In this document: positions 10,663 through 38,130 of the stretch, piece by piece
Numbering within the stretch: position 1 is the first letter of the stretch
Layout: each line of letters opens with the position of its first letter
Assembly (NCBI RefSeq): GCF_009766085.1
Contig: NZ_LMUF01000006.1
Coordinates: 156,202 to 220,201 of the forward strand
From: Burkholderia sp. S171
GTDB taxonomy: Bacteria > Pseudomonadota > Gammaproteobacteria > Burkholderiales > Burkholderiaceae
Direction: 5' to 3'
Length of the DNA: 64,000 bases
Notes under the pieces: generated by a model
The model's input: only the letters and a program-made list of their open reading frames with translations
Told to the model about the DNA's origin: nothing
Databases searched by the model: none
Translations under genes and position numbers: made by a program

Positions 10663-10700
10663 GCGCAGCCTGCACGGTTCTTATTAGGACAGGAAAAACG

Positions 10701-10945
10701 ATGACCAGTGAAAGAGCGTTGGTCTGCGCAGCAGACTATATTCGGCAAGCTGACTCGATCATCATTGCTGCCGGCGCGGGAATGAGCGTCGATTCGGGCT
10801 TGCCAGATTTTCGGAAGAACGGGTTGTAGAAGGCCACGGCACGATCAATACGCTCCAATGCACTACTCCTTGCACTCATTCACTATGGCCTACGGGCGTT
10901 CTTCCGCGCGACCTGAAAGCGCAGCAACTCGCGTGCGATTCTCGG
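10701..10945 (+). pseudogene. Second SIR2 remnant with internal deletion
   Basis: A clear start with AGGA upstream encodes a SIR2 N-terminus (IIAAGAGMSVDSGLPDF) and stops after about 42 codons. Directly after, in another frame, comes EGHGTINTLQC, the catalytic-His region of SIR2. About 80 residues between the two are missing. It follows the frameshifted SIR2 gene by 38 bases, so the two were a tandem pair. Confidence 0.75.
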
Positions 10946-14396: not shown

Positions 14397-14625
14397 AAAT
14401 ATCTTCCGATATGCGCTCACCACTGGGCGGCTTTACAAACGTTTCTAGCATAAGCAGCCTCAGGCTCCCACGGCACTCAGTCGGCTGTCTCTTCGTTAGT
14501 CCGTCAGAATGGGACCACCCCCAAAAGACGATCCTGGTGCACGGATCGACTCACTACCCGCACGGCGAAGCAAACCTTGACTGGATTGCCAAAGGTTTCC
14601 CCTCAAGGAGTGAATCGACGCCTTT

Positions 14626-16955: not shown

Positions 16956-17470
16956 CGGTTCGCGGTCTTGACATCGAGAACTGTGATTTGAGGCCTTAGG
17001 TTTCGTTCCATCTTACCGTTGACGATTGCTGCAGACGTCAACAGTAGGCTGCAGCAGCAAGGGAATCACGCAGAGCGCGGCAATTACGCTCGTTTGTAAG
17101 GCTTGCTGTCTGCCGAGCTTGAGTTCGCCGATCAATCAAAAATCGGAACCAATCGTTTGCAATCGAGACACTTTCTGTCTTATTCACCTCACATACTCTC
17201 TCGTGACCGCGATCAAATCAATTAAACTCGATGCGTCAGATCGCGCCGGTATACAAATTGTTGCCGGTTACCCTCCAAGGAAACAGTCAATTGAGAATTG
17301 CTTGGTATTTTCCAGGGAATGCATTCAGCGAATGGGCCGACCTTCACAGCGAAGTGCCGCTGAAGCTCCGCACGCGATATTTCTAGAGTTGAGAATCGAG
17401 ATCTGCGGCGACCTCCTAATCGCTCGTGCCACTAGGCAACAAAATAATAACCACATTGAGGAGATCGGCG
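16956..17470 (+). other. Gap between WYL gene 1 and AddB-like gene
   Basis: About 515 bases with no convincing gene. An imperfect inverted repeat around CTGCAG occurs near 17023-17062. The gap is AT-richer than the genes around it and probably holds the promoter of the nuclease pair, though no clear boxes were found. Confidence 0.4.
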
Positions 17471-20131: not shown

Positions 20132-23100
20132 TGACCACCACAGTTAAAGTCCTTCGCGATGACGACGCACGCCGCGAGGCGATCAGCGTGCATGATCGCT
20201 CTATCCTGGTCGAGGCCGGAGCCGGGTCGGGTAAGACGGCTGTCATGGCCGGTCGGATCGCGGTTATGTTGGCTGAGGGCATCGCGCCCAAATCCGTCGC
20301 GGCCGTAACATTCACGGAACTAGCGGCCAGCGAATTACTGGTCCGGGTGCGCGACTTCGTCAGCGACCTCGCGGCCGGGAACATCCCGACCGACTTGCGT
20401 ATCGCCTTGCCCGACGGTCTCTCGTATACCCATAAGGACAACCTTGCGACAGCCAGCGCAGCGATTGACGAGATTACCTGCTCAACGATTCACGGCTTCT
20501 GCCAGCGACTGATCAAGCCTTACCCGGTCGAGGCTGATATAGATCCAGGTGCCAGCGTGATGGATCGCAACCAGGCCGACCTCGCCTTTATCGAGATTGT
20601 CGAGACCTGGCTGCGCGAGCAGCTCTCGGGCGCCGAAGGCGGGATCATCGCCGAGATGGTCCTTCAGAATCCGGGCGAGACCGTCGGCCTGATCCACAAG
20701 ATCGTCGGGAACCTACGTCGGCGGCGCACGGTGTCCGCCCCGCCGGTACTCCCCCTCGCGCCGCGCCTACGAGCGTTTCACGACGCGGCAGAGGCTTTCG
20801 CTGAATTCATCAAGACAGCGCCTGCGGTCGAGGAAGAAACGGCGACGTTCGCCGAGCGGTTCGCCGAAATGGCGCGGGCCCTCAATGACGCGCAAGTTGC
20901 CGAAACGCCAGCCGGGCTGGTCCGCCTGCTGATTTCCCGGCCACACGGCGACCTCTGCACCAAGAGCGGACCTTTCGTAGCCTTCAAGAAGAAGGGCAAA
21001 TGGGTCGATGCCGCCAAGCGCGAGGGCTTGGCCAAGGCTGATGGCGAGCGTCTTAATACGGCGGCTGAAAACCACTACGCGGCGTGCTGCGGCGCATGGC
21101 AAACCATGCTCGAGAATGTCGCCAGTCGGGTTCTGTCCGATCTGATTGCCCAGGTGCAGCCGGTCCTACACCGCTTCCGTGTTCATAAGCGCTCAGCGGC
21201 TCTGCTTGATTTTGACGATCTGATCTTTGCGGCGCGCGGACTTTTGCGCGACCACGATGCTGTTCGCCGCGCGCTCGCCGCACGCTTCGCTCACGTACTG
21301 GTCGACGAATTCCAAGACACTGATCCGCTGCAGACGGAGATTTTCTGGCGTCTCTGCGGCGAGCCACCCGCGGACGGCGCAACCGATGACTGGGTGGCAT
21401 TCAGCATCCGTCCCGGGGCCTTATTTCTGGTCGGTGACCCCAAACAGGCGATCTATCGCTTTCGCGGCGCTGACGTGAGCGCATATGTGCGCGCGCGTGA
21501 TGCGTTTCTCGCTCAGGATCCCAAGAGCGTTCTTTCGATCTCGACCAACTTTCGTTCCTGCGCGCCCATTCTGACCTATGTGAACGAGCGCTTCGAAGCC
21601 CTACTGTCGAGCGAGGGACAGCCTGGCTTTGTCGCACTCGATTCCTTTCACGGAGATCGCGGCGAGGCGCTGTGTGTCGCGGCTTTGGATGTGGCTGTCG
21701 CCGACGAAACTGGCAAGGCATCCGCCGAACAGCAGCGTGACGCCGAAGCCGAAGCCGTCGCCGAGATGTGTGGCCGCCTGATTGGCAGCGAGATGATACT
21801 CGATCGCCGCAGCGGCACCGGCCGCCTCTGCCGGCCGGGCGACATTGCCTTGCTCGCCCCCACCGGGAGCGACCTTTGGCGGTATGAAGAGGCGCTCGAA
21901 CGGCAAGGCATCCCTGTAGCCACGCAGGCGGGCAAGGGACTCTTTCGCCGCCAGGAGATTCAGGACCTGATCGCCCTGACCCGCGTCCTCGCCGACCGGC
22001 GCGACAGCCTCGCCTTGGGCGCATTGCTGCGCGGCCCGCTCGTCGGGCTGACCGAAGAAGAGCTTCTCGACATCATCTGGGGGCTGCCGCGATCCAAGGA
22101 TCATCCCGACGCAATACCCAGGCTCCATCTCGGCCTGGACGCCAGCAGCATCGAGCACCCGCTAGCTCGAACGGCGCTCGAGAAGCTGCAGGCGCTTTAT
22201 CGTCGGGCGAATGGCACCACCCCGCACGATCTTCTGTCGCAAGCGGTCGATGTGATGCGGGTGCGCCCCATCCTGCTCGAACGGCACCGCGGACAGGCCG
22301 AGCGCGCACTGGCCAACGTTGACCTCTACCTCAGTCTCACGACCGCCTTCGCGATTCGGGGCCTTCGCGCCTTTGCCGAGACTATGACGGCAGCATGGGC
22401 CGACGAATCACGTGCGGTTGAAGGGCGCCCCGACGCCCAGGAAGAAGCCATCGCCCTCTACACAATGCACGCAGCCAAAGGCCTCGAGTGGCCGATCGTC
22501 GTGCCAGTCAACACCATGACCGGGATCATGGTGCCGGAAACCGCGGTGACCGATCGTGAGAGCGACATCTTCTATTGTCCAGTCTTCGGTGTGCGGCCGG
22601 CCGGCTATGAGAAGGCTCGCGAAGCTGAAAAAGCCGAGCTCGACCGGGAGCGCATCCGCCTGTGGTACGTTGCCGCCACGCGGGCGCGTGAACTGCTTGT
22701 CCTGCCCCGGCTTGATTCAACCCCATCGAAATCGGCCTGGATATCGCTGCTTGACCTCTCGCTCGCCGACCTTCCAGCGCTCGATCTGTCTCACCTTCCG
22801 TCGGACATGGGGGCAACAGCGACCGCCCAAGGCAACTCACAGACTCGCGAGGTCTTTGTGGCAGAAGCAGCAGCGATCGCCGACTGTCACCACCGCTTGA
22901 CCTGGTTGGCTCCAAGCCGTGACGAAGGCAGCACTGTGCCTGTTCTGACGCCGAAAGAGATGGAAATCTGGGCAGCAAACGGCCTTGGTCAGGCGGACGA
23001 GGATGCCTCTGCGACCACCATCCAGGGCGGCCGCGAACGCGGGCTCATTCTGCACAAGCTCCTGGAAGAGGTTCTGACTGGCGAAACCGAAGATGACATG

Positions 23101-23532
23101 GTCTCATTGACCGAACGTGCGCTATTGCTCACCACGGCGATGGGCAAACTGGTCGTTGATGACTCAGCTCAGGGCCTTTCGCCCTTAGAGTTGGCAGGGT
23201 GCGTGACCCGTACCCTCGCCTTGCCAGAAATCGCTGAACTTCGGCCGACTCTTGTACCGGAGTTCTCAGTCTATGCCTCAGTGCTTGTCGATAACGTTGA
23301 ACAGGCGACGGCGGGCGTTATCGACGCCGCGAGCATAGGACCGGATGGCAAGCCGCAAACTGTCATCGATTGGAAAAGCGATATTCAGCCGAGCCCGGAG
23401 ACGACGGAGCATTACCGCGCACAGGTCCGGAACTATCTCGATATGACCGGTACTGAACTCGGGCTGATCGTATTCGTGACGTCGGGCCTTATTTTGCCCG
23501 TTTCGCCCACGCCCACTCTTGCGGCCACCTAA
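20131..23532 (+). CDS. AddA-like UvrD/Rep helicase-nuclease
   Basis: A 1133-residue SF1A helicase with all motifs: GAGSGKT (about 30), VTFTELAASEL, VDEFQDTDPLQ (390), GDPKQAIYRFRG (434), TNFRS (471), TMHAAKGLEW (777) and YVAATRARELL (845). A C-terminal nuclease is marked by VIDAAS and VIDWKSD near 1077. It is the motor partner of the AddB-like protein, translated by a one-base stop/start overlap. Length and architecture match AddA. It differs from a normal chromosomal recBCD/addAB setting by its island context. Confidence 0.9.
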   Translation: MTTTVKVLRDDDARREAISVHDRSILVEAGAGSGKTAVMAGRIAVMLAEGIAPKSVAAVTFTELAASELLVRVRDFVSDLAAGNIPTDLRIALPDGLSYTHKDNLATASAAIDEITCSTIHGFCQRLIKPYPVEADIDPGASVMDRNQADLAFIEIVETWLREQLSGAEGGIIAEMVLQNPGETVGLIHKIVGNLRRRRTVSAPPVLPLAPRLRAFHDAAEAFAEFIKTAPAVEEETATFAERFAEMARALNDAQVAETPAGLVRLLISRPHGDLCTKSGPFVAFKKKGKWVDAAKREGLAKADGERLNTAAENHYAACCGAWQTMLENVASRVLSDLIAQVQPVLHRFRVHKRSAALLDFDDLIFAARGLLRDHDAVRRALAARFAHVLVDEFQDTDPLQTEIFWRLCGEPPADGATDDWVAFSIRPGALFLVGDPKQAIYRFRGADVSAYVRARDAFLAQDPKSVLSISTNFRSCAPILTYVNERFEALLSSEGQPGFVALDSFHGDRGEALCVAALDVAVADETGKASAEQQRDAEAEAVAEMCGRLIGSEMILDRRSGTGRLCRPGDIALLAPTGSDLWRYEEALERQGIPVATQAGKGLFRRQEIQDLIALTRVLADRRDSLALGALLRGPLVGLTEEELLDIIWGLPRSKDHPDAIPRLHLGLDASSIEHPLARTALEKLQALYRRANGTTPHDLLSQAVDVMRVRPILLERHRGQAERALANVDLYLSLTTAFAIRGLRAFAETMTAAWADESRAVEGRPDAQEEAIALYTMHAAKGLEWPIVVPVNTMTGIMVPETAVTDRESDIFYCPVFGVRPAGYEKAREAEKAELDRERIRLWYVAATRARELLVLPRLDSTPSKSAWISLLDLSLADLPALDLSHLPSDMGATATAQGNSQTREVFVAEAAAIADCHHRLTWLAPSRDEGSTVPVLTPKEMEIWAANGLGQADEDASATTIQGGRERGLILHKLLEEVLTGETEDDMVSLTERALLLTTAMGKLVVDDSAQGLSPLELAGCVTRTLALPEIAELRPTLVPEFSVYASVLVDNVEQATAGVIDAASIGPDGKPQTVIDWKSDIQPSPETTEHYRAQVRNYLDMTGTELGLIVFVTSGLILPVSPTPTLAAT

Positions 23533-24301: not shown

Positions 24302-25321
24302 ATGTCCATGCTCGATCGCTCGATCATTAGCGTACTGCCAGATGGCGCCTCAAGTAACGAATACATCAGCACCCCGGAAGTTCATAGAAGGCTGAGTGTA
24401 TTCGAGCCCGAAATGCCCGTCATCAAGACGGTACAACGACGACTCGAGCGCATGTGCGACGAAGGCCTCGTCGAGCAAGACAAGCGGGGTGTTGCGCTGC
24501 ACTGGCGAAAGCGTGCCGGTGCAAGCGGCATGGCAGCAAAGGCGGGCTCGATGATGACGCGCGATGAGGCGCTCGCGCTGCAGACGCTCAAGCGCTTTTC
24601 CTCGCGGCAGATCCCCGTACTGGTCGCTGAGCACTTGTCCGCCATGTTCCACGTTGCGCAGCACCGGCTGGAAATCGTTCACAGCGAGGACGACCGGCGT
24701 TACTTGAAATGGGCCGATAAAGTCGCGGTTGAAAGCGGCGCATTCACACTGAAATACCCGGTCGTTGATGGTGCCATCTTCTCCGCGGTGTCACAGGCGT
24801 TGTTCTATGAGCGCAAGCTCGAAATCGTCTACCGGCCGCGCAACAAGATAAACAATGAAGAGGCAAAGGTCATTCTTCCGCTAGGGCTCGTAGAAGTAGG
24901 CGGTCTCGTGTACCTGATAGGCGGCACGGAAGGACGTCCGAATCCGACCATGTATCGTCTGGACCGCCTTTGGCGCGCGGCCATGATGCTCGAATCGTTT
25001 GCCTACCCGAAATCGTTCCAGCTCGCCAATTACGTCAGGCAGCAGCGGCAATTTGACTTCATGGTAGAGGGCGAAATCCTGCTGAAACTGCGCTTCTCGC
25101 ATGGCGCAGGCGATCATCTTCTCGAAACTCCTTTCGCCGATGACCAGAAAGACGAGCGTGCGGACGAGCGCCTCGAAGTACAAGGCACCACGCTTCTAAG
25201 CCAGCGACTGCGCTGGTGGCTGCGCTCGTTTGGGCCGACGGTGGAAGTGCTAGAACCGGCAAGCTTGCGCGCGGAACTGGCGAGTGAAGCGCATGTGCTC
25301 GCGGCCATGTACCGCAAATGA
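24302..25321 (+). CDS. WYL-domain transcriptional regulator 2
   Basis: A 339-residue paralogue of the gene at 15897. It has an N-terminal winged helix (VHRRLSVFEPEMPVIKTVQR), a WYL core with FYERKLEIVYRPRN and LPLGLVEVGGLVYLIGG, and a C-terminal LRWWLRSFGPTVEVLEPASL, which matches the same region of paralogue 1. A second ATG two codons in is possible. It lies between the AddAB-like genes and a NERD helicase pseudogene and may control either. Confidence 0.87.
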   Translation: MSMLDRSIISVLPDGASSNEYISTPEVHRRLSVFEPEMPVIKTVQRRLERMCDEGLVEQDKRGVALHWRKRAGASGMAAKAGSMMTRDEALALQTLKRFSSRQIPVLVAEHLSAMFHVAQHRLEIVHSEDDRRYLKWADKVAVESGAFTLKYPVVDGAIFSAVSQALFYERKLEIVYRPRNKINNEEAKVILPLGLVEVGGLVYLIGGTEGRPNPTMYRLDRLWRAAMMLESFAYPKSFQLANYVRQQRQFDFMVEGEILLKLRFSHGAGDHLLETPFADDQKDERADERLEVQGTTLLSQRLRWWLRSFGPTVEVLEPASLRAELASEAHVLAAMYRK

Positions 25322-25357: not shown

Positions 25358-26548
25358 ATGGCTCGCATACTGCCTCACGGTTGGAAAGCGTTGCGCCTCA
25401 GCGGAGGCGCGCGGCGCGAAATCGAAACCTTGGTCCAGTTCGAGGCAGGACTTCCCGACGAATACACGGTTGATCATTCAGTTCACTGGACGCGTCGCGG
25501 CAATCGAGCAAAAAGCAGGCGCACTCGAAGAAACAGACGACGGTCTGACGAAAACGTATTCCGGAAATAGCAAGAATGTCGCGATTTAACTGGGCGGGCC
25601 GTCGCCGGGCTTCGTAGTCGACTCGACGGGGCGTTCGGCCCGAACAACTATCGCGTCGAGGAACTGCTTTATTGTCCGGATTACACGGTCCGCTATGCCG
25701 CCATCGCTGGAGTCAATCCTTCGCGCGTCGTGGACGCGTCGCGCCGTGACGTGCTTTCCAGTGTGATCGAGCAGATATTGCCTGCCCTCGAAGAACCGCT
25801 ACCCTGCAATAGCCGGATCCATTCATTTTTCGCGGGAAAGCTATCTTTGATGCCCGATGCCGGCGCGATGATCGGCGAAGCATCGAAACTTGTCACACAG
25901 TTGTCGGACGGCCTTACGACGTGGGCGCGTCGCATTGAGGTCAAGCCGTTCCGGCTGCGCGTGATTGGAACAGCAGGCTCCGGAAAGACGCAACTGGCAA
26001 TCGGCGTGCTGCACGACGCCGTAGCGGCGGGGCATCGGGGCTTGTATGTCTGTTACAACCGGCCGCTCGCCGACCACGTGTGCGCGATCGCGCCGCGCGA
26101 AGCGCACGCCATGACGTTCCACCAGTTGTGCGAAGCCGTCGCCAACGAAGCCGGAGGCAGCGCGGTGCAGGCCACGAACCAGGCATTAGTCGATGCGTTG
26201 GCGCTCGGATATCGTCCGGCCGATATTGCGGTGATAACGTTCCAGGGACGGTAAAAGTCGCTTCTTGCTAACCTCGACCAACTCGGTCGCCACCGGCTCC
26301 GCAGTTTCACCGGTAACTACGATGCGGCGGGCATACCGCTCTATCGGGACGGTGACTTTCTGTTAGAAACCGTCGATCGCTTCAAAGGACAATGCGCGCC
26401 TTGTGTGATTCTCACCGAGGTCGACTTTTCAGCGTTTGATGAGGGTTTACTGCGCCGGTTGTTTGTCGGCACGACGCGCGCGACGATGAAACTCATCGAG
26501 GTGATGTCTGAACGAGCAACGCGGATCTTGCTGGAGCGCTGCGCATAG
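25358..26548 (+). pseudogene. NERD-domain SF1 helicase, decayed
   Basis: Several frames together give a NERD nuclease-helicase: MARILPHGWKALRLSGGA at the start, AAIEQKAGALEETDDGLTK (NERD core) in a shifted frame, NPSRVVDASRRDVL, a Walker A GTAGSGKTQLA near 25968, then TFQGR followed by an in-frame TAA at 26252 and on to DRFKGQ and FVGTTRAT (motifs V-VI). Frameshifts, one nonsense codon and a large deletion between motifs I and V make it non-functional. Intact relatives are around 600 residues. Confidence 0.8.
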
Positions 26549-26589
26549 GAAGCCCATCGGATCGCGGCCTCGGTTCGCACAACGACTGC

Positions 26590-26835: not shown

Positions 26836-27309
26836 TGACCCTCTTAGGTTGATCCATGCCGCGATGTCGTGTTTCATCTCGCGCCTGTATATAGATCGCG
26901 CTCCGCACGCTCACATCGGGCATTGCAGGATTACCATTTTGAATGCGGTTCGGGACATATCGCGTCCTAATTGCAAGCCCTCGAACTGCGTGGATCAGGA
27001 GAAAGACAAGTGACAAATCACGATTGAGACATCGACTGTCTTGTGAGAGCGTCATTGCCACGAGGCGCTTCAGTCGGCCACCATTGCGTGCAGCCGACAC
27101 CATGGATAGAAAATATGGATTGAACGGTATGCACATCGCTACGCTCCGTCACGACGAAAGTGTGCAGCTCTATCAGACACGATTTGTCGCGACATACCGC
27201 TACAGTGCCGGTGACGGACGACAGTGGCCGCGAAACATCCTACGTAGATATAAGATAGCGACGTGAGCAGGTTTGCCTATTCCAACCGATCAGCCCTGAA
27301 GGAGCCGAC
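26836..27309. other. Gap before the small membrane peptide/dynamin operon
   Basis: About 470 bases without a convincing gene. Short overlapping frames on both strands lack ribosome sites and known domains. The promoter of the dynamin operon should lie here, but no clear boxes are visible. Confidence 0.4.
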
Positions 27310-27444
27310 ATGGTGTCAAATAACTCTCCACTCGAGAGCCTTGCTGCTTTTGCGATTGTTTTCGTTGCGGGCGTATTGTCCACCGCAGTGCTGGGCAAAT
27401 ACATCGACAAGGTGCGCCGCGACGCGCGGGCCGCCGTGCGATGA
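27310..27444 (+). CDS. 44-residue single-span membrane peptide, copy 1
   Basis: ATG at 27310 with GGAG about 6 bases upstream. The peptide starts SNNSPLESLAAFAIVFVAG, has one hydrophobic span (about residues 10-30) and a basic end (KYIDKVRRDARAAVR). A related 48-residue peptide at 34928 shares SNNSP-E-LAAFAIV, a Gly/Ser-rich span and a K/N-YI end. Both are followed by a CxxC zinc-ribbon gene. Copy 1 heads the same-strand series leading to the three dynamins. Confidence 0.65.
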   Translation: MVSNNSPLESLAAFAIVFVAGVLSTAVLGKYIDKVRRDARAAVR

Positions 27445-27467
27445 CCTGAATCAAGATAGGAAACGCA

Positions 27468-27686
27468 ATGCCCATTCGCGCGCCAACGATGAAAGCAACA
27501 TGCAGGAGGTGCGGCAAGCAACGGTTGTGGCCGCAACGCAGCGATGCACTTATTGTGCCGCGCGAATGCGCCGCTTGCTGCAGCCAAGACGTTTCGATCA
27601 CGGTAGCCAAGCCGTTCGATATATTTGCCGATGCAGTGTGGTGCTTTGGGCGACTTATTGGATCAAAGCGTGAGTATAAAAAGTAG
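27468..27686 (+). CDS. 72-residue zinc-ribbon protein
   Basis: AGGA seven bases upstream supports ATG 27468. Two Cys pairs, CRRC (12-15) and CAAC (34-37), form a zinc-ribbon pattern; the C-terminus is hydrophobic/aromatic then basic (GSKREYKK). It lies 23 bases after the membrane peptide gene and about 90 before the first dynamin. The equivalent gene at 35052 has a long glycine-zipper insert between its Cys pairs. Confidence 0.6.
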   Translation: MPIRAPTMKATCRRCGKQRLWPQRSDALIVPRECAACCSQDVSITVAKPFDIFADAVWCFGRLIGSKREYKK

Positions 27687-27775
27687 AGACACAGTCAACG
27701 TTCAGCTTGCCAATGGCGCTTGAATATATCAGCCCAATTCAAGAAACCGCTGGAACTTCCGTTATCTATAGGTCA

Positions 27776-29554
27776 ATGGTAGGTTCTGACGACATGAAGC
27801 CAGAGAACGGGGCTCAATACGATTTCCGGACGCGTTGCACACACATGCTAAAAAATCAAAAGCGATATCTAGACTATTTCGACCAACAAGCTCGAGCGCT
27901 CGAAGGCAGTACAGTGCAATGCCCTCATGCAGGCGAACTGCGGGAAGCCATCGCAAATACGGAACTACTCGTTCCGGTCATTGGCTCGTTTAGCGCGGGC
28001 AAGAGCAGCCTGATCAACACGTTTATCGGCCGCGAGATGCTTCCGGTCGGCATCAAGCCAGAAACCGAACTCGCGACGGAATTGCGCTATGCCGAAGATG
28101 AGCGCATCGAAGCCGTACTGTTGAGCGGAGGCACACTGCGCTTTGACATTGCCGAAATGTCCTCGCTGAAGGCGCGCGCCAACGAATTCTCCCATTTGCG
28201 TCTGTGGGCCAGATGCGAGGCACTCGCTCGCATTGCACCACTGGTGCTGGTCGACATGCCTGGCTTCGACTCCACGCTCGCAAACCACAACAAGGCTATC
28301 GCGAACTATATCGACAAGGGCGCACACTATCTCGTGGTCGTCAGCGTCGAGACGGGCGGCGTCACACGGTCGATGCAGCGGCAACTTGCCGATATTCAGG
28401 AGCTTGATCGTGACTTCTCGCTCTTATTGAGCAAGGCAAACGTGCGCGCGGAGTCAGAGGTTGATGAAGTCGCCGCGAAGATTGAGGAGCAGGCGGAGGA
28501 CGCATTCGGCACTCATCGCGCGGTGCGAAAGATCGGTCTGGACGGTGCGGCCAAGCTGCAGTCGGCGCTGGACGCGATAGACCCGGAGCAACTCGTCGAA
28601 AGCCTGTTTCAAGGCGACGTGAAGCGCACTCATCTCGAGATTACGGAGGCCATCAACGTCGCGCTTGCCGGACTCGAGACCAATGCCACGGACAATTTGC
28701 ACGCCGTCGAAGAAATGAAGGCGGGTCTTGTAAAGGTCGAACACAAGCGGGAGGATCTGGTCGCGGATATCGAGGCACGCTATTCGTCAAGTGCGGTGCG
28801 AAACTGTGTCGACGCAGTTGGCCACGCGCTCGAAGCGGGGGTGCCGGAACTCGTCGCAGCCGGCATGTCGGGAAATCGCGAAACGCTGTCGCGAGCGGTC
28901 ACTGAAATCGTCCGCGGCTCCTTGATTCGCAAGATCAAGGCCCAGATGAGCGAGATCAGCCAGAAGATCGTCGCTGAATTTGCGCTCGAACTCGACGATC
29001 TCAACGCGCTGATGTCCGTCTATACGGCAGACGCAGACTGGGTCGGCAGGGTCACCACGAATACGACTCAACTGTTTGAACAGGCCAATCGCGGTGTTAG
29101 TCGTCTGAGCGAATATATGGTCAAGAAGAACGGAACGCAGACTATTTATAAGGTCGCGACGACTATTCTGGCGGTCACGACCAATGTTGTGTTTCCATTG
29201 CTCGAATTGGTCATTATCTTCCTGCCTGACTTGTTGCAGCCTTTTTTCGAAGCACGCCGCCGAGAAACGATCGAGGCCAACGTGAGGACCGAGATAATTC
29301 CCGGCATCAAGGCTTCTTTGCGCGAAAAATTGCCGGACATTTTTCGCGAACAGGTTGAACTGCTAGTGAGGCAGGTGAGCGGCCAGTTCGAATCCGCTAT
29401 CGCCGAAAAGAAGGAAGCCCTCGAAAAGCTTGAGCAGGAACGTCGAAACCATCAAGAATCAATCCAGCAACGGGTAGCCGGACTGCGCGATCTGCAGCAG
29501 CGTCTGAACACACTCGCCGACGAACAGCTCTATGGTAGCGAGGTGGTGGCGTGA
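27776..29554 (+). CDS. Dynamin-like GTPase A
   Basis: About 592 residues from ATG 27776 (TAGG just upstream); starts at 27713 or 27794 are possible. GTPase motifs: G1 GSFSAGKSS near residue 70, a Thr in the PETELATEL switch region, G3 DMPGF near 160, G4-like LLSKAN near 218. The second half is coiled, with a hydrophobic stretch (ILAVTTNVVFPLLELVIIFL) that would be the membrane paddle, and ends in a Glu/Gln-rich coiled coil. It resembles the LeoA type of bacterial dynamin. The stop overlaps the next gene by 4 bases. Role: membrane binding and remodelling with its two partners. Confidence 0.85.
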   Translation: MVGSDDMKPENGAQYDFRTRCTHMLKNQKRYLDYFDQQARALEGSTVQCPHAGELREAIANTELLVPVIGSFSAGKSSLINTFIGREMLPVGIKPETELATELRYAEDERIEAVLLSGGTLRFDIAEMSSLKARANEFSHLRLWARCEALARIAPLVLVDMPGFDSTLANHNKAIANYIDKGAHYLVVVSVETGGVTRSMQRQLADIQELDRDFSLLLSKANVRAESEVDEVAAKIEEQAEDAFGTHRAVRKIGLDGAAKLQSALDAIDPEQLVESLFQGDVKRTHLEITEAINVALAGLETNATDNLHAVEEMKAGLVKVEHKREDLVADIEARYSSSAVRNCVDAVGHALEAGVPELVAAGMSGNRETLSRAVTEIVRGSLIRKIKAQMSEISQKIVAEFALELDDLNALMSVYTADADWVGRVTTNTTQLFEQANRGVSRLSEYMVKKNGTQTIYKVATTILAVTTNVVFPLLELVIIFLPDLLQPFFEARRRETIEANVRTEIIPGIKASLREKLPDIFREQVELLVRQVSGQFESAIAEKKEALEKLEQERRNHQESIQQRVAGLRDLQQRLNTLADEQLYGSEVVA

Positions 29555-31797
29555 CGGCGGGATACGTTCTTGGACTGCGTGCTCGTCTTGATACGCTCGT
29601 CAGAAAGAATCACGACCTGCTCGGTGACGAACACGAAAGCCTTGTACGCAAGCATGGTGTCGATCGTGTGGAAGATCTCGCCAGTGCGTTCACCAAGATC
29701 GACGACGACGAACGGTTGCTGCAGGTCGGTGTCGTCGGACGGGTCAAGGCCGGTAAGTCGTCGCTGATCAACGCGTTGCTCTTCGGCGGCGAAACGGTGT
29801 TGCCGAAGGCTGCGACGCCGATGACAGCGGCGCTGACCCGGCTATCGTGGGGTGAATCGCTCTCGGGGGAAGTGGAGTTTTACTCGTCGGCCGACATTGA
29901 CAACATTCGCGCAAATGCCGAGCTTTACGCGGGAATGCATGAAACCCTGACAAGCGAACAGTTCAAAACCTTGCGAAAGAGGCGGGACGCTGATCTCGCG
30001 TCCACGGAAAGCGACGAGGCATTGATGCAGCGAGCGAGCCGCTTCGCCGAGCGGCAATTGAGCGAGCGCCCGACGTTGAGCGCGGCGAACGATCAGTTCG
30101 CGCGCATTAGCCGCGCAGGCATGAGCCTGCGAGGACTCGGCGCAACGCAAACACTTCAGGCGCGCGATCTGACGGATCTACGGAATCAGTTGCAAGACTA
30201 CGTGAGTGCCGACGGACGCTTCATGCCCTTCACGAAGAGCGTACACATCCGGTTGCCGCTCGAGAACCTGCGCGACATCGCGATCGTCGATACTCCAGGC
30301 CTGAACGACCCCGTCGCCTCTCGCGAGGAGCGCACCTGCGAACTGCTGAAGTATTGCGACGTCATTTTCATAGTAAGTCCGGCGGGACAATTCCTTAACG
30401 CGGAGGATCTCGACCTGATGGGCCGGGTCACGCATAAAGAAGGCGTGCGGGAGTTGTACTTGCTCGCGAGTCAGGTCGATACGCAGCTCTTCGGCAGCAA
30501 CTACGCAGGCGGGCGACTCGACGCTGCGCTCAAGACCATCTCCGACGAGCTTGGTACGCAGATGCGGGAAACGCTCCGTGCGTTCCGCGACGCTCACCCC
30601 GAGGTTGGGACCACCTTCGACAAGCTGATCGCAAGCGGCGCGGCGAAGCTGCTGCACTCGTCCGGGCTCTCGCACAGCTTGAGCACTCGATTCGAGCGCC
30701 GTGACGATTGGGACGACGGCGCGGCCAAGGTGTGGGAAAACCTCTCGGCGTACTTCCCGGATTACTTCCCCGCGGGCAACGTGCCGATTGCGACTTCGAA
30801 CCTGGACAAGCTCTCCAACATCGGCGCTCTGCATGCGGTCATCGCAGACGTGCGCGGTCAGAAGGAGGTCATCAAGGCTGAGCGTCGCGACGCGTTAGCG
30901 GCGGCCAAGGGCGAGGCGCTCGCACACTATCGCAACGATCTGCTGAACTATATCAAGGAGCGCAACCGCCGGATCGGCGACGGTGATATCGGCAAGCTCA
31001 ATGAGCAGTGTACGAAACTGGAAAAGCGCAGAGTCAGGTTGACCGATGTGCTGGTGGTCGCGTTTCGCGTGGAACTGCACGGGTTCACATCCGAACTGGA
31101 CCGACAGCTATCCGGAAAGATCAGAGAAACGTTCAATGCACTGAAGAGGACGCTCGAAGACGAGCAAGGCACCTACAACGGTTCGTATCGCACCGAGAAC
31201 GACGGCGCCATCAGCTATCTGGCACGCAAACTCAGCTTGGGCGGGTACACGAACCAGACATATAGCGAAACAACGGTGATGACGCCGAACGTCAGTAACG
31301 GTCTTATTGCGATTTCGGACAGGATTCAGGCGTCGGTTGACCGGATCGTCAAGGAGCATCTGTTTCAGTGGGAAGAAGCCCTACGCAAAACCCTCTTTCG
31401 CGTATTGCGTGAAAACGTACCCGAAGAGGAAATCGACGGCTACCTCGAACGCCGGACGATCCACGACCTGGTGGACAACCTCAAGCGCCCCTCGCTCCAA
31501 CCGAACCTCGAGCTTCCTGCGAACCTTACGGCGCAGGGAAAGCTGCAGGGTAGCGCCGCGGACGACTATATCAATGCTGCGAAGAACTACATCGGTGATC
31601 TCGAGCGGCGCTTCGAGAGCGGCATCAAGCGATACATCGACCAGACCGACGAACTTAAACACACCGACGTCGCGGGCCTCTTTCTCTCCGGCTATAGCAA
31701 GCAGGTAGAAGCGCTGGAAAACGAAATTCGCAATAAGAAGCTCGTCACTGAACGTCTTGCGCAACTGGCCATCGATCTTGACAAGGTGACGCAATGA
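29551..31797 (+). CDS. Dynamin-like GTPase B
   Basis: A 748-residue protein with GTG start inside the end of gene A. G1 GRVKAGKSS at 63-71, switch Thr in ATPMTAALT, G3 DTPGLNDP near 247. The G4 position reads ASQVD near 306, so the usual N/T-KxD is degenerate, which may weaken nucleotide specificity. A long insert (about 110-220) is rich in charged helices. The C-terminal half is alpha-helical without a clear membrane span. It overlaps gene C by ATGA. In Leo-type systems unequal dynamins assemble together, so B may be a partner for A or C. Confidence 0.85.
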   Translation: MTAGYVLGLRARLDTLVRKNHDLLGDEHESLVRKHGVDRVEDLASAFTKIDDDERLLQVGVVGRVKAGKSSLINALLFGGETVLPKAATPMTAALTRLSWGESLSGEVEFYSSADIDNIRANAELYAGMHETLTSEQFKTLRKRRDADLASTESDEALMQRASRFAERQLSERPTLSAANDQFARISRAGMSLRGLGATQTLQARDLTDLRNQLQDYVSADGRFMPFTKSVHIRLPLENLRDIAIVDTPGLNDPVASREERTCELLKYCDVIFIVSPAGQFLNAEDLDLMGRVTHKEGVRELYLLASQVDTQLFGSNYAGGRLDAALKTISDELGTQMRETLRAFRDAHPEVGTTFDKLIASGAAKLLHSSGLSHSLSTRFERRDDWDDGAAKVWENLSAYFPDYFPAGNVPIATSNLDKLSNIGALHAVIADVRGQKEVIKAERRDALAAAKGEALAHYRNDLLNYIKERNRRIGDGDIGKLNEQCTKLEKRRVRLTDVLVVAFRVELHGFTSELDRQLSGKIRETFNALKRTLEDEQGTYNGSYRTENDGAISYLARKLSLGGYTNQTYSETTVMTPNVSNGLIAISDRIQASVDRIVKEHLFQWEEALRKTLFRVLRENVPEEEIDGYLERRTIHDLVDNLKRPSLQPNLELPANLTAQGKLQGSAADDYINAAKNYIGDLERRFESGIKRYIDQTDELKHTDVAGLFLSGYSKQVEALENEIRNKKLVTERLAQLAIDLDKVTQ

Positions 31798-33575
31798 AAA
31801 CGTCAACCACGTTGCTGTCGCCCCAGGTCGCCGGGCTGATTCAGCGCCTCTCGTGCTTCTTCGTCTGGCGACGCCAGCCGCTCGCGCAGCAGATCCATGC
31901 GCACCTCGCGCTGGCCGAGAGCCGACATGGGACCCTGGTTGCGCGACACCAGAAAGTGCGGGTCAAGGCCGTCAGTCTTCGACAGCGCCTGCATGTCGAA
32001 ACAGATCGCACAAACGCTCTCCAATTGACGCTCGCCGATGTTGAGTCGTCCCTCACCGGCGTGCGGGCCTCACTCGATGAAGTATCGGAGCGCTACGATC
32101 TGGTGGCCCGCCTACTGGCTGCGAAACCGGTATACGCCACGGGACTCGCGCATTACAGGAAGGTGCTCAACGAAGACTATCTGGCCTTCGCGGGCGCCGA
32201 ATCGTCGCTGGCAGACGAAGCACAGGCGTACCTGATGCTGCAATCCGTCGAGGCGCAGTTGGAACTGATCGCGAACGAGCCGGACATCTACACGAAAAAA
32301 AATATCGCGATTGCGGGCGGCTTCAGCAGCGGTAAGTCGGCGTTCGTCAATAGCTTCATTGAAGCGCCGGAAATCAAACTGGCGGTCGGCATGCGGCCGG
32401 TTACGGCGATACCGACTTATGTGCGGCATGCGTCTTCGACTGCAATCAAGGCGCATGCGACAGCGGGGGGCACGATCGAACTGGAGGTCGGACTTTACAA
32501 GAAGATTTCCCATGACTTCCTGAAGTCACTCGGCTTCGATTTGAAGAAGATCATGTCATTCATGTCGATTGCCACGCGGATGACGGATGTGCGCTTTGAG
32601 AATCTCTGCCTGATCGACACGCCTGGGTTCAACCCGCCTCGCACGGGCGGCTACACGACCGACGACGAGCGCACAGCCTCTACCTTCGCGACGCAAGGCG
32701 ATGCCCTGATCTGGCTGATCGGCCTCGATTCGACCGGCACGCTGCTGGCGTCCGATCTTGAGTTCATCCATCGTCTGGACCTCGCCGGCAAGGAGTTGTA
32801 CGTCGTCGCCAACAAGGCCGATCTGCGCAGCACGTCCGACATCGACGACATTCTTGACGACATCGAAAACGTGCTTGAGGGCGAAGGCATTGCATTCGTC
32901 GGCGTAAACGCGTACAGCTCGGGCCAGGCGCGCGAACATGCATACCGGCGCGAGTCGTTGCAGGCGTTCTTTGCGCGGCACAACCAGACGGTTAGTGCGG
33001 GGTCGAAGCTTTACGATACGATCGACCGCGTATTCGACATGTATCGCAACGCAATCGCACAGGATATTGCCGAGTCGATTCACTCGCAGAAGACGTTCAA
33101 GTCGATGAGCCTCGACCTGCAGCAGCATGCGAGCGACGAGTTGATCAACGTACTGAGCGGCAAGTTTGCGGCGTTTGGACATGCGGCACGCGAAATGGAA
33201 CTGCGCGAGCACCTGAAGGCCGCGCGGCGGGTCAAGGCGCAGCTTAAGGCCGCCGTGCATGCCACGATGTGCGCGTCCGACGTACGAAACTTAGGGCAAC
33301 CGCACGGCGCCGAGTACTTCGACGACTCGTCGTTCGAAGACATTGATGCGCTCATGGCCAAGCCCGCGGCAAGCAAAGCCGCGAGCGTCGAAGATGCCGC
33401 ACGCGATGGAGCCCGTGAGTCCGCAGTCGAAAAGGACGTCAACAACGAAATTCCGGAACTCGCGCGCACGAACCGGGCGGATGGGCTCCTTTCGCGGATC
33501 CTCGCAAGCCTCTCTCGCCTGGCACGGGAGGCAAGCGAAGCGTCGCAAGGGGTGTCGGACGCCGCCGCAAAATAA
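31794..33575 (+). CDS. Dynamin-like GTPase C
   Basis: A 593-residue protein. The N-terminal 170 residues are helical, with a VKAVSLRQRLHVETDR-type coiled coil. The GTPase has G1 GGFSSGKSA near 175, G3 DTPGFNPP near 273 and a canonical G4 NKAD near 339, the best conserved of the three. The C-terminal 70 residues are Ala/Ser/Glu-rich and probably disordered. It is the last gene of the operon, overlapping B by 4 bases. The G-domain lies in mid-protein, as in LeoC/LeoB-like proteins; exact family needs a profile search. Confidence 0.82.
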   Translation: MKTSTTLLSPQVAGLIQRLSCFFVWRRQPLAQQIHAHLALAESRHGTLVARHQKVRVKAVSLRQRLHVETDRTNALQLTLADVESSLTGVRASLDEVSERYDLVARLLAAKPVYATGLAHYRKVLNEDYLAFAGAESSLADEAQAYLMLQSVEAQLELIANEPDIYTKKNIAIAGGFSSGKSAFVNSFIEAPEIKLAVGMRPVTAIPTYVRHASSTAIKAHATAGGTIELEVGLYKKISHDFLKSLGFDLKKIMSFMSIATRMTDVRFENLCLIDTPGFNPPRTGGYTTDDERTASTFATQGDALIWLIGLDSTGTLLASDLEFIHRLDLAGKELYVVANKADLRSTSDIDDILDDIENVLEGEGIAFVGVNAYSSGQAREHAYRRESLQAFFARHNQTVSAGSKLYDTIDRVFDMYRNAIAQDIAESIHSQKTFKSMSLDLQQHASDELINVLSGKFAAFGHAAREMELREHLKAARRVKAQLKAAVHATMCASDVRNLGQPHGAEYFDDSSFEDIDALMAKPAASKAASVEDAARDGARESAVEKDVNNEIPELARTNRADGLLSRILASLSRLAREASEASQGVSDAAAK

Positions 33576-34927: not shown

Positions 34928-35074
34928 ATGCCATCGAACAACTCGCCCATCGAGCTGCTGGCAGCATTCGCCATCGTTCTTACATTTGGCGCTCTCTCTG
35001 CTATCGGGATCGGTAACTACATCAAGCACATTAAATCGGAGGCATCAAGTAATGGACGACAGAGAAGAATTTGA
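34928..35074 (+). CDS. 48-residue single-span membrane peptide, copy 2
   Basis: Begins SNNSPIELLAAFAIVLT after Met-Pro, a clear relative of the peptide at 27310. One hydrophobic span is followed by KHIKSEASSNGRQRRI. Its end overlaps the start of the zinc-ribbon/glycine-zipper gene in another frame, and the GGAGG for that gene lies inside this one, so the two are coupled. No strong ribosome site of its own is seen. Confidence 0.6.
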   Translation: MPSNNSPIELLAAFAIVLTFGALSAIGIGNYIKHIKSEASSNGRQRRI

Positions 35075-35456
35075 TGGCGAAACTTCGTTTTCAACTGCAG
35101 CAAACGCGCGACAGTTTCGCACCACTATTTGCTGTCCAAAGTGCGCGTCGGAGCAGATCACCGCGAAGAACCGCGCACGTAAGCTCGCTAGCACCATCGG
35201 AACCGTCGCCGGAGCCGCTAGCGCGGCTGCGGCTTGTATGCCCTCAGCCGAAATCGGCGCGACTGTCGGTCTATTGAGTGGCGGTCCGATAGGCGCAGCA
35301 ATCGGCGGCATCGCTGGCGCAGTCGTGGGCGCCTTGATCGGCGGAGCCGCGGGTTGCATCGCAGGTGCTGCGGTCGGCGAGGTCATTGATGACAACGTTC
35401 TCGATAACTTCCATTGTCTCGCCTGCGACTACCTATTCAGCAAACCACGCGGTTGA
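35052..35456 (+). CDS. Zinc-ribbon protein with inserted glycine-zipper segment
   Basis: A 134-residue protein from ATG 35052, with GGAGG 9 bases upstream. It has CPKC near residue 29 and CLAC near 124. Between them lies a long Ala/Gly hydrophobic region with many GxxxG steps (SGGPIGAAIGGIAGAVVGA), typical of glycine zippers that insert in membranes. The two Cys pairs could close one zinc ribbon at the base of a membrane hairpin. It pairs with the peptide at 34928, as 27468 pairs with 27310. Confidence 0.7.
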   Translation: MDDREEFDGETSFSTAANARQFRTTICCPKCASEQITAKNRARKLASTIGTVAGAASAAAACMPSAEIGATVGLLSGGPIGAAIGGIAGAVVGALIGGAAGCIAGAAVGEVIDDNVLDNFHCLACDYLFSKPRG

Positions 35457-35674
35457 TCGCCCGGTCATCACCACTCTTCATTCTGCAGATTTCACCCGCC
35501 TCATTTCTCTCGTTTCAATTGAAGTAAGCGTCTGGAGCGTTTCGCTCGAACGTCTATTCGCTCTCCCGTACTAGCTCACCTTTGCCCAGCTAGCCAGCAG
35601 TGCGCACCGATCTCTGCCGACTCCCGTTGGCGGCGTTGTCGCGTCTATACAGCTCATCTTAAAGGATTTTATTT
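35457..35674 (+). other. Gap before the ICE-type block
   Basis: About 220 bases, pyrimidine-rich, with no gene seen. It separates the peptide/zinc-ribbon pair from the DUF932 gene and likely holds the promoter of the latter. Confidence 0.4.
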
Positions 35675-36634
35675 ATGGCTCATCTCGTCGAATCAATGGC
35701 TTATGTGAATGCCGTGCCTTGGCACGGTATTGGAAACCGTTTAAGCACCAAACAACCCATCGAAGTCTGGGCGCAGCAATCTGGTATCTCGTTCGACATC
35801 AAGGAAACACCGGTTCGCTTCATGACGGAAAGCGCCGGCGGCCTCGGCGCCATCAAGAGCTTCCCCGAACAGAAAGTGCTGTATCGCTCGGACACAAACG
35901 CGCCCCTGTCGGTCGTCAGCAGCCGCTACCAGGTCGTCCAGCCTCGCGAAATTCTCGAGTTCTACAAAGATCTCACCGAGGTCTCTGGTTTCGAACTAGA
36001 AACGGCCGGCATTCTAAAAGGCGGCCGCAAGATCTGGGCGTTGGCGAAGACGAACCAGTCGGCCGTCTTAAAGGGTAACGACCGGGTCAACGGTTATCTG
36101 CTTCTAGCCACCGCGTGCGATGGCACGCTTGCGACGACTGCCCAATTCACGAGTGTGCGCGTCGTTTGCAACAACACGCTCGCAGTCGCGCTCTCCAACG
36201 CTAGCAGCGCGGTCAAAGTTCCTCACAGCACGAGCTTTGATCCACAAGCGGTCAAGAAGCAGTTGGGAATCTCGATCTCCTCATGGGATTCGTTCATGTA
36301 CCGCATGAAGACCCTGTCCGAACGTCGCGTGAAGTCGCATGAGGCAATGAACTACATTTTACGCGTATTCACCGATCCGACGACGACGGCTGCGGGCCTC
36401 TCCAATGAGCGCGCCATGAAGAAGGTCATGGCGCTCTATGAAGGCGATGGTAAGGGTGCTGAGTTGGCATCGTCCAAGGGAACCGCGTTCGGTTTGTTGA
36501 ATGCCGTCACCGAGTACGTTGATCACGAGCGGCGTGCGCGGTCAACCGACCATCGATTGGAGTCCGCGTGGTTCGGTCAAGGCGCGACGCTTAAACAGAA
36601 GGCACTTGATCAAGCCATGGTGATGGCGAGCTGA
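35675..36634 (+). CDS. DUF932 (phage/plasmid-like) protein
   Basis: A 319-residue protein of the DUF932/TIGR03299 family, found on plasmids, ICEs and phages. Recognisable parts are VPWHGIGNRLS near the start, VLYRSDTNAPLSVVSSRYQVVQP near 70-90 and FTSVRVVCNNTLAVAL near 165. AAGGA eight bases upstream supports the start. The molecular role is unknown; it is often next to recombination genes, as here (YqaJ-type nuclease downstream). A terminator hairpin separates it from the next gene. Confidence 0.85.
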   Translation: MAHLVESMAYVNAVPWHGIGNRLSTKQPIEVWAQQSGISFDIKETPVRFMTESAGGLGAIKSFPEQKVLYRSDTNAPLSVVSSRYQVVQPREILEFYKDLTEVSGFELETAGILKGGRKIWALAKTNQSAVLKGNDRVNGYLLLATACDGTLATTAQFTSVRVVCNNTLAVALSNASSAVKVPHSTSFDPQAVKKQLGISISSWDSFMYRMKTLSERRVKSHEAMNYILRVFTDPTTTAAGLSNERAMKKVMALYEGDGKGAELASSKGTAFGLLNAVTEYVDHERRARSTDHRLESAWFGQGATLKQKALDQAMVMAS

Positions 36635-36658
36635 TCCGTTAAATCTTGTTCCCTACCC

Positions 36659-36695
36659 GCCCGGCCGCACTCACCTTGCGCCGGGCTTCGTTTTT
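36659..36695 (+). terminator. Rho-independent terminator after DUF932 gene
   Basis: GCCCGGC pairs with GCCGGGC, followed by TTCGTTTTT. It lies 25 bases after the DUF932 stop. Confidence 0.75.
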
Positions 36696-36709
36696 ATAAG
36701 GAGCCGAAT

Positions 36710-37714
36710 ATGAGCGCTGTTGAAGACGCCGGGCCGCGAAAGGGGCGCCCGGCATTAAAACTAGTCAAAACCAACCAGTTGAACCGGGACGAATGGTTGA
36801 CGGTTCGCAAACGCGGGATCGGCAGTAGCGACGCCGGAGCCGCGGTGGGAGTCAATCCCTATCAGTCACCGCTCGAACTGTGGATGATCAAAACAGGCCG
36901 CGACGGCGGTTTGCCCAAGATCGATCTCAACGACGAGACAAGCCCGATGTACTGGGGGACATTGCTAGAACCGATAGTAGCTGCGCACTACACGAAGCGA
37001 ACGGGCAATCGCGTCAGACGCATCAACGCCGTTCTACAGCATCCGGACCCGGACAAAGCGTGGATGCTCGCCAACGTCGATCGTGAAGTGATCGGCTCAG
37101 GCGACGTCAAGATTCTTGAGTGTAAGACAGCCGGGGAATTCGGCGCTCGGCTATGGCGCGATGGGGTGCCGGAATACGTCGTGTGTCAAGTCCAGCACCA
37201 ACTGGCGGTGACCGGAAAGTCGGCAGCCGACGTGTGCGTGCTGGTGCGTGGCCAAGAGATTCGGATCTATCGAATCGATCGCGACGACGCGCTGATTGCG
37301 CGGCTCATCGAACTCGAGCGGCGTTTCTGGTCTCACGTCGAGATGGATATTCCACCACCTGCGGATGGAAGCGAATCTTCTGATGTCGCGCTACGGGCGC
37401 TGTATCCCCAGGACTCGGGGAATACGATTGACTTGACCAGCGACCGTGAATTTTCGTCAACGTTTGCCGATCTGGTGACGGTGCGTGAAGCGATCGACAA
37501 CAGCGTAAGGCTGGAAGCGCAATTAAAGCAAAAGATCCAGCAGCGTATGGCGGACGCGACGCGCGCAGTCTTTGAGACCGGATCGGTCAGTTGGAAACGC
37601 AGTAAGGACGGCAACGGCCTGGACATCGAAAAGCTCCTTCAAGCCCAGCCAGACCTGCTCACCCACTATCCCCTCAACAAACCCGGCAGTCGGCGGTTTC
37701 TCGTCAGCGTCTAA
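36710..37714 (+). CDS. YqaJ-family (lambda-exonuclease-like) recombination nuclease
   Basis: A 334-residue protein with the YqaJ nuclease fold: GIGSSDAGAAVGVNPYQSPL (38-57), LLEPIVAAHY with the catalytic Glu, DREVIGSGDVKILECKTAG with the D and ExK residues near 120-132, and CQVQHQLAVTGK. AAGGAG seven bases upstream sets the start. These exonucleases make 3' single strands for annealing-type recombination in phages and mobile elements; the usual RecT/Beta partner is not recognised nearby. Confidence 0.88.
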   Translation: MSAVEDAGPRKGRPALKLVKTNQLNRDEWLTVRKRGIGSSDAGAAVGVNPYQSPLELWMIKTGRDGGLPKIDLNDETSPMYWGTLLEPIVAAHYTKRTGNRVRRINAVLQHPDPDKAWMLANVDREVIGSGDVKILECKTAGEFGARLWRDGVPEYVVCQVQHQLAVTGKSAADVCVLVRGQEIRIYRIDRDDALIARLIELERRFWSHVEMDIPPPADGSESSDVALRALYPQDSGNTIDLTSDREFSSTFADLVTVREAIDNSVRLEAQLKQKIQQRMADATRAVFETGSVSWKRSKDGNGLDIEKLLQAQPDLLTHYPLNKPGSRRFLVSV

Positions 37715-37762
37715 GTTCCTTGTAACCAGCACATCTCGACGGCCTCCTTCGAGGGCTTTGCG

Positions 37763-37812
37763 CTGACCCTGCGCGTCACTGACCGTGCGGGGTCACTGTG
37801 CGTCTTTTTAAA
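37763..37812 (+). terminator. Probable terminator hairpin after yqaJ-type gene
   Basis: TGACCC and GGGGTCA arms with extra partial pairing around a short GC spacer, followed after a few bases by CTTTTT. The stem is imperfect, so confidence is moderate. Confidence 0.45.
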
Positions 37813-37824
37813 ATCGGAGTTTCT

Positions 37825-38130
37825 ATGTTCGAAGCAGCCAGGGCTCGCGAGTGGCCCGAGATTTTTGAGTCGGAATCACTCGCTCGGAATTACATAGCGG
37901 ACGCAGTGGTGATTGGGGCGCGTCCTTGGATTAGGCGGCTCGGCGGTTTGGTTTCGGGCAGCTTCATCATGATTAGCGGCAAAGACGTAAAACCGAAGGT
38001 GCCTGCGCTCGATACACCTGTTGCCGAATCGTCAACGTCTACTCGCGTGGAAGCCCAAATAGACGCCATCCAAGCGACCGAAAACCCAACGATCAACGAA
38101 ACCACATCTCATTCAAAGGAGCAGCAATGA
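37825..38130 (+). CDS. Small hypothetical ICE protein
   Basis: A 101-residue protein; the start is chosen for CGGAG six bases upstream. The N-terminal part is mixed, with a weak hydrophobic stretch (LGGLVSGSFIMIS); the C-terminal half is Ser/Thr-rich and probably disordered. It overlaps the next gene by ATGA. No domain is recognised. Confidence 0.6.
   Translation: MFEAARAREWPEIFESESLARNYIADAVVIGARPWIRRLGGLVSGSFIMISGKDVKPKVPALDTPVAESSTSTRVEAQIDAIQATENPTINETTSHSKEQQ

Follow-up and report, generated by a model that had tools for sequence, protein, structure and literature searches.

A rare, mobile set of three dynamins in Burkholderia sp. S171, preceded by a peptide/zinc-ribbon pair shared with other operons

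Introduction

Bacterial dynamins have mostly been described in pairs (PMC6104087). In the Campylobacter jejuni pair DLP1/DLP2, GTP turnover needs both P-loops within a hetero-tetramer (PMC6104087), and in Eleos/LeoABC of Escherichia coli H10407, leoC and leoB have been described as the two pieces of a single dynamin (PMC4159319). LeoABC has also been reported from a Pseudolactococcus defence island (PMC13335696), and dynamins and Eleos are counted among defence classes (PMC10855318, PMC11811056). Here we describe three adjacent dynamin genes, dynA, dynB and dynC, in a 64,000-nucleotide stretch of Burkholderia sp. S171 (contig NZ_LMUF01000006.1, positions 156,202 to 220,201), hereafter the window. 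Positions are window coordinates; the 8.49-Mb genome that holds the window is labelled G000 in our genome surveys.

By single sequence, the closest solved relatives of DynABC are Cj-DLP1/DLP2 (PDB 5owv/5oxf), which they resemble in sequence and fold; unlike that pair, DynABC has a third dynamin, a paddle-like stretch in DynA only, and a DynC whose profile favours EHD2. Like Eleos/LeoABC, the locus combines several dynamin genes per operon with mobile DNA, and an Eleos set from the same genus (in genome G010) has the same head of WYL-domain regulator, peptide and zinc ribbon; DynABC differs in comprising three dynamins with distinct G4 motifs and weak matches in the defence library PADLOC. Bacillus subtilis DynA is another bacterial dynamin linked to phage resistance (as cited in PMC10855318 and PMC13335696), but it is two dynamins fused in one protein (PMC6104087). 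Helicobacter pylori also has three dynamin-like proteins on one genomic island, but these are DLP-helical proteins on a putative toxin island (PMC8935386), and we set them beside DynABC by description only. A literature search, covering titles and abstract openings among the matches listed and few subscription papers or preprints, returned neither the DynABC trio nor the peptide/zinc-ribbon head, which is a weak negative.

We propose, with a probability of roughly one half, that DynA, DynB and DynC assemble into a WYL-controlled, inducible and likely antiphage membrane-remodelling hetero-dynamin system with a portable head, in which DynA inserts in the membrane.

Three distinct dynamins

All five open reading frames (ORFs) between 27310 and 33575 lie on the + strand (ORF list), and dynA/dynB and dynB/dynC overlap by 4 bases each (GTGA and ATGA). 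DynA (27845..29554, +), DynB (29551..31797, +) and DynC (31794..33575, +; 174 residues before the P-loop) all scored above the Pfam Dynamin_N cutoff (2.4e-18, 1.9e-16 and 9.2e-10, respectively), and a dynamin-type G-domain is followed by a helical stalk, as in the dynamin superfamily. The initial annotation of this DNA had described the single strand, the 4-base overlaps and three dynamin-type GTPases with differing G-domains (SKAN, ASQVD and NKAD), all of which agree with our results: the three dynamins of the set are indeed different. The probable start of DynA is ATG 27845 rather than TTG 27707, which gives a protein of 569 amino acids (aa), as long as four close orthologs (P0062, P0088, P0093 and P0097; 69 to 71% identity).

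Single-sequence searches placed DynB nearest to DLP1 among solved proteins (PDB 5owv_A, 1.6e-12) and both DynA (1.8e-10) and DynC (PDB 5owv_C, 1.2e-9) nearest to DLP2, and profile searches kept DLP2 and DLP1 as the nearest solved relatives of DynA and DynB. An AlphaFold2 model of DynA has a dynamin fold (mean pLDDT, 71; residues 371 to 437 of the 546-residue form are unreliable), for which the top Foldseek ranks were BDLP (1.3e-13) and Cj-DLP2 (1.8e-13). The best 19-residue hydropathy was 1.95 to 2.39 in all six DynA proteins and at most 1.47 in seven DynB and seven DynC proteins. Judged by hydropathy, a strong paddle-like stretch is thus confined to DynA among the three subunits, and DynA is predicted to insert in the membrane.

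The three genes occur together at six loci: the window, Pseudomonas aeruginosa, Calditerrivibrio, Thiothrix, E. coli and Photobacterium. We built profiles of A, B and C from the window, P. aeruginosa, Calditerrivibrio and Thiothrix members, adding Nautiliaceae for B and C. These profiles recognised every subunit on two plasmids that had no part in building them, one an IncF plasmid of E. coli (9.1e-74 for A, 4.8e-79 for B and 7.9e-59 for C) and the other from Photobacterium (4.7e-46, 4.2e-92 and 4.1e-41), so that six loci hold the full trio. Plasmids carry it in four genera (P. aeruginosa, E. coli, Photobacterium and Calditerrivibrio), and there is the Thiothrix locus too. A Nautiliaceae contig has C and B, and DynB relatives were found in 15 plasmid records and at no fewer than two loci in a pattern scan of genome contigs.

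Near its host, the trio is rare. At thresholds that exclude short fragments, such as one in G054, G000 was the sole carrier of DynA in each sample: 299 family genomes and 369 class genomes at E ≤ 1e-60, and 58 genus genomes at E ≤ 1e-20. For DynB, 121 relatives gave two matches (G000 and a weak one, 8.9e-6) and 398 phylum genomes likewise gave two, G000 being one; the G459 family (197 genomes) contributed three genomes with distant DynA matches. The trio is therefore rare near the host, and mobile. The E. coli locus has an IS3-type element directly upstream of the trio (by eye), and genes for EH_Signature and SNF2-helicase proteins adjoin the P. aeruginosa trio. On the E. coli plasmid (L078:4210-11798), the trio is followed by an 829-aa CFI-box-CTERM gene that overlaps dynC, a possible fourth component.

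A peptide/zinc-ribbon head shared with other operons

Two small genes precede dynA. The first (27310..27444, +) encodes a 44-aa peptide of the 'NNSPLESLAAFAI' family with a single hydrophobic span (Kyte-Doolittle, 2.37 over 19 residues). Across 11 loci its difference rate was 0.584 at codon position 3 and 0.240 and 0.207 at positions 1 and 2, the behaviour, in sequence comparison, of a coding gene. At E ≤ 0.1 the family has at least 99 relatives, and those with names are from Burkholderiales or unclassified Pseudomonadota. In overlapping samples, the peptide turned up in 18 of 200 genomes of the family (E ≤ 1e-4), in 4 of 300 of the order (E ≤ 1e-5) and in 6 of 58 of the genus (E ≤ 0.01), the six including one match that we reject. 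The match in G025 (E = 0.005), which was dropped, lies inside a 260-aa ORF that looks unrelated.

The second gene (27468..27686, +) encodes a 72-aa zinc-ribbon-type protein with two CxxC motifs. It matches only itself in the protein database; short homologs lie downstream of the peptide at six other loci. Both knuckles are kept in 7 of 7 aligned members and in Photobacterium, a pattern indicative of a zinc ribbon. The membrane peptide and the CxxC-CxxC protein of the initial annotation are thereby borne out, and the idea that both are orphan genes was overturned by the peptide search and by a ribbon profile built from the loci. That profile (seven short ribbons) found one further significant member among 3,260 ORFs of 13 loci, an unannotated Photobacterium ORF ending 17 bp before dynA (2.3e-9), which may be decayed because no in-frame ATG, GTG or TTG precedes its first CxxC. 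In a second set of 3,378 ORFs, it found a ribbon 3' of the trio on P. aeruginosa pPAG5 (L085:746-1045; 6.7e-11), with the next match at 0.15. The same profile found no ribbon at the E. coli, Thiothrix and Calditerrivibrio trio loci, tblastn of the zinc ribbon against plasmids gave a best E value of 0.03 (at PGU19, a known locus), and the Photobacterium ribbon as query returned only itself as significant. A CxxC ORF upstream of the P. aeruginosa trio (L001:8845-9177) fits a hand-written pattern and fails the profile, and we did not count it; the pattern fits 3 of the 3,260 ORFs, including a transposon gene.

We examined 29 peptide places, comprising 28 ORFs and one truncated copy in L035, with the weak match in L070 kept. 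The gene directly 3' of the peptide encodes a zinc ribbon with a glycine zipper at 13 places and a short ribbon of the window type at 7, and 9 places have neither; at one of the nine (L036), a glycine-zipper ribbon, DUF932 and YqaJ lie upstream of the peptide. The 13 glycine-zipper ribbons are followed by DUF932 in 12 cases and YqaJ in 11. The other 15 places (7 with the short ribbon and 8 without) have varied neighbours, this trio among them: five have SIR2, as a remnant in one case and together with RecC in three; five, the trio and the Eleos locus included, have WYL genes; one has a NERD helicase; and, by eye, the type I restriction genes hsdM/hsdS lie near L067 and L072. L063 and L070 have no recognised neighbours. 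In G010 the order is WYL, peptide, zinc ribbon, LeoBC (2.3e-154) and LeoA (1.7e-165), with the WYL gene split over two frames, and in G1056 a homologous WYL gene lies directly upstream of the peptide and ribbon. Another same-genus locus (L022:9695-10851) has a DynA-like fragment (8.5e-19) and an EcsC gene (PADLOC PDC-S29) upstream of peptide, ribbon, SIR2 and RecC. In L065 (14575-18749), the peptide is followed by two overlapping P-loop proteins of 736 aa (recognised only by eye) and 655 aa, the second weakly dynamin-like (Dynamin_N 3.5e-5, below the cutoff); this pair is a possible further two-GTPase system.

Because the pair precedes dynamin and non-dynamin operons, it is a recurrent cassette common to both, and it is not dynamin specific. 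The initial annotation had proposed the small genes as accessories of the dynamins. In favour, the ribbon recurs beside dynamin sets (the window trio, the G010 Eleos, Photobacterium and P. aeruginosa). Against it, over the six trio loci the peptide occurs at one and the ribbon at three, the pair also precedes SIR2-RecC, and peptides precede DUF932; small genes missing at trio loci and linked to other operons are, in part, the very findings that the annotation had named as contrary to its view.

The unit also extends beyond the five genes of the initial annotation: a WYL gene and two palindromes lie upstream, and a second peptide/zinc-ribbon pair lies downstream (34928-35456). The WYL gene (24302..25321, +; Pfam WCX 2e-12, WYL 3e-10) is separated from the peptide by two exact copies of the palindrome GACA-N5-TGTC, candidate operators without strand at 27028..27040 and 27176..27188, the latter 134 bp before the peptide ATG. 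The window has four exact sites (0.93 expected; 2 of 100 shuffles reach 4), of which the other two lie at 9776, before a broken SIR2 copy, and at 17167, between a WYL gene and a PD-(D/E)XK-UvrD operon.

Fourteen loci without the glycine-zipper ribbon have 18 exact sites in 232 kb (first-order Markov null, with L067, L070 and L072 included, 2.75; largest of 20 runs, 7), and 13 versus 0.75 at 6 or more of 8 arm pairs. With those three loci removed, the count was 17 in 187 kb versus 2.15 (2-base block shuffle). The 12 glycine-zipper loci have 1 exact site in 192 kb (null, 3.55), and other G000 DNA has 2 in 100 kb (null, 1.05). The palindrome was first noticed in the same loci as were counted; the sites at the heads of the P. 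aeruginosa and Photobacterium trios are independent of its discovery. Of the 15 places that lack the glycine-zipper ribbon, 9 (L070 included) have an exact site in the 400 bp upstream of the peptide; L022, L023, L064, L067 and L072 have no such upstream site, and in L035 the site precedes the WYL gene.

The WYL protein BrxR, which regulates phage defence, binds inverted repeats whose arms are 5 bp apart (PMC9122601). Here too, a WYL gene lies near defence-type genes with an upstream inverted repeat of 5-bp spacing; the palindrome sequence and the order WYL-peptide-zinc ribbon differ from those of BrxR-family regulators. By this analogy, the WYL protein may bind the palindromes. Outside the window, P. 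aeruginosa is the only trio locus with a WYL gene (the pPAG5 copy is split in two), and none was found in the Photobacterium stretch.

From this we infer that the peptide and zinc ribbon form a portable head, a shared control or adaptor unit in which one protein would anchor in the membrane and the other act as adaptor or regulator. The strongest competitor, to which we give somewhat less than even odds, is that the small genes are backbone of a mobile island in this bacterial family and play no part with the dynamins, and that dynamins, Eleos and SIR2-RecC landed there as in a hot spot for defence genes. Twelve of the 29 peptide places precede DUF932 and the others varied cargo, the window trio is flanked by two peptide copies, and the peptide was not found at the five other trio loci (its profile gave nothing at E ≤ 1 in 2,697 segments of trio loci outside the window), all as such an island would predict. 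It accounts less well for a ribbon that also adjoins the trio outside the host family, in Vibrionaceae and in Pseudomonadaceae, and for the order WYL-peptide-zinc ribbon kept before both dynamin systems.

G4 motifs and nucleotide use

The usual G4 motif has K and D at positions where DynB has Q and DynA has N. In the window, DynA has SKAN, DynB (A)SQVD and DynC NKAD. Among orthologs, DynB has SQxD in 5 of 7 (SKMD in E. coli, GQLD in Photobacterium), so that its motif, annotated initially as degenerate, departs from the usual one as described and is no one-off decay. DynC has NKAD in 6 of 7 (SRAD in Photobacterium), and DynA has (S/N)KxN at four trio loci, with TKxD at the other two (E. coli and Photobacterium). 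On these alignments, the prevailing G4 motif differs from subunit to subunit.

In an alignment of the wider DynA family with 124 rows (the best 120 of 559 database matches, scored among the closest candidates, plus 4, with the window protein present twice), position 4 is Asn in 107 and Asp in 17. Parsimony on a FastTree tree of 125 sequences, rooted on two TKxD proteins, placed Asp at the root with three changes: one to Asn, and the remainder inside a single Aeromonas-rich clade (27 members) to which every one of the 17 Asp rows belongs. Given these changes back to Asp, the Asn of DynA has not always been kept.

One explanation, which we hold to be rather unlikely, is that DynA and DynB have lost nucleotide specificity or catalysis and are pseudo-GTPases, with GTP turnover left to DynC. 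The replacement of the usual D by N in DynA and of the usual K by Q in DynB fits this, as does the reversion of N to D in the Aeromonas-rich clade, by which the difference may be nearly neutral. The P-loop and DMPG/DTPG motifs of both proteins are canonical in the alignments, unlike what decay would leave.

In Ffh, an Asp-to-Asn change moves specificity from GTP to XTP about 10^4-fold, and its partner FtsY still uses GTP (PMC517823). This precedent makes an altered nucleotide for DynA a testable idea. Its boldest form, which we consider improbable, is a tripartite machine whose sole membrane-inserting subunit, DynA, would be a xanthine-nucleotide or other non-GTP dynamin switched apart from its GTP-using partners, on a portable operator-peptide-zinc-ribbon head swapped between immune effectors. 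Because the trio is conserved, has a paddle-like stretch in one subunit and differs in G4 motif between all three, the division of nucleotide use within a hetero-dynamin can be tested on it.

A likely antiphage function

Based on genomic context, the trio likely has a role in antiphage defence. Defence-type neighbours in the window include McrC with an AAA_5 partner, UvrD, PD-(D/E)XK, two WYL genes and SIR2. In the hetero-dynamin system that we propose, the WYL protein would repress the operon from the palindromes, and infection would lift this repression so that the operon is expressed. DynA, DynB and DynC would then assemble, with B and C pairing with A through their G-domains and catalysis occurring across unlike G-domains, as in Cj-DLP1/2. 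The hydrophobic stretch of DynA is predicted to enter the membrane, where GTP turnover by B and C could drive tethering, sealing or reshaping by A at sites of phage damage, blocking the phage cycle. The peptide and zinc ribbon would serve as membrane anchor and as adaptor or regulator, offered to several effectors.

Several results weigh against this proposal. The head is patchy over the six trio loci: besides the peptide and ribbon counts given above, WYL is present at two and an upstream palindrome at three, and both E. coli palindromes lie inside dynA. The DynC profile has EHD2 as its best solved relative (4e-4) instead of DLP2, and the DynC structure model was set aside as unusable (pLDDT, 51). 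The PADLOC search gave no full-strength match for the trio, a pattern scan of viral contigs found no relatives of DynA or DynB, and phage records held none of DynB. A viral origin of the locus was rejected, since the search of viral contigs gave no relatives of the queries labelled A3, A1 and A4 and that of phage records none of DynB or the peptide.

It is doubtful that the trio instead serves membrane maintenance, sealing or vesiculating membranes in the way that has been proposed for B. subtilis DynA and for LeoABC, with no antiphage action. The discussion of membrane repair by the Cj-DLP pair (PMC6104087) speaks for such a role; the rarity and mobility of the trio, its link to WYL and its place amid restriction-type genes speak against it. 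That the locus is simply an Eleos/LeoABC system is very improbable and was rejected on profile strength: LeoA is the best PADLOC match of DynA (2.4e-9) and DynB (3e-7), with best stretches of about 55 residues each, and LeoBC that of DynC (1.9e-8, residues 142 to 555), whereas the G010 Eleos attains its far stronger scores over whole proteins. The recurrence of the head before defence-type operons of different kinds suggests that it is a portable cassette for control or adaptation, and it could help to find further defence operons as a marker. With such tiny genes, some of them unannotated, it could escape defence catalogues.

Other features of the window

Between the WYL gene and the peptide lies a decayed NERD/UvrD-type helicase remnant (25358..26550, approximate limits, +). 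Its AAA_19 trace (0.0045, within 25730-26254) is below the cutoff, and by eye its N-terminal reading resembles a 543-aa NERD helicase (L062:6037-7668). Downstream of dynC, peptide-family searches identified the second peptide copy (34928..35074, +), followed by a 134-aa protein (35052..35456, +) whose zinc ribbon is broken by a glycine-rich hydrophobic stretch and which precedes DUF932 (35675) and YqaJ (36710). The order of second peptide, glycine-zipper ribbon, DUF932, YqaJ and Gp3-like genes (34928-39134) recurs at other peptide loci. At the start of the window (20-7792), the McrC gene and its AAA_5 partner lie beside a helicase gene that partially matches PDC-M27C and DrmD in PADLOC. Two SIR2 genes follow (9797-10829 and 13572-14423), the first broken into several ORFs with the palindrome at 9776 just upstream. 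A further stretch (15897-23532) consists of a WYL gene, the palindrome at 17167, a PD-(D/E)XK nuclease and a UvrD helicase, and has the same layout as the dynamin unit.

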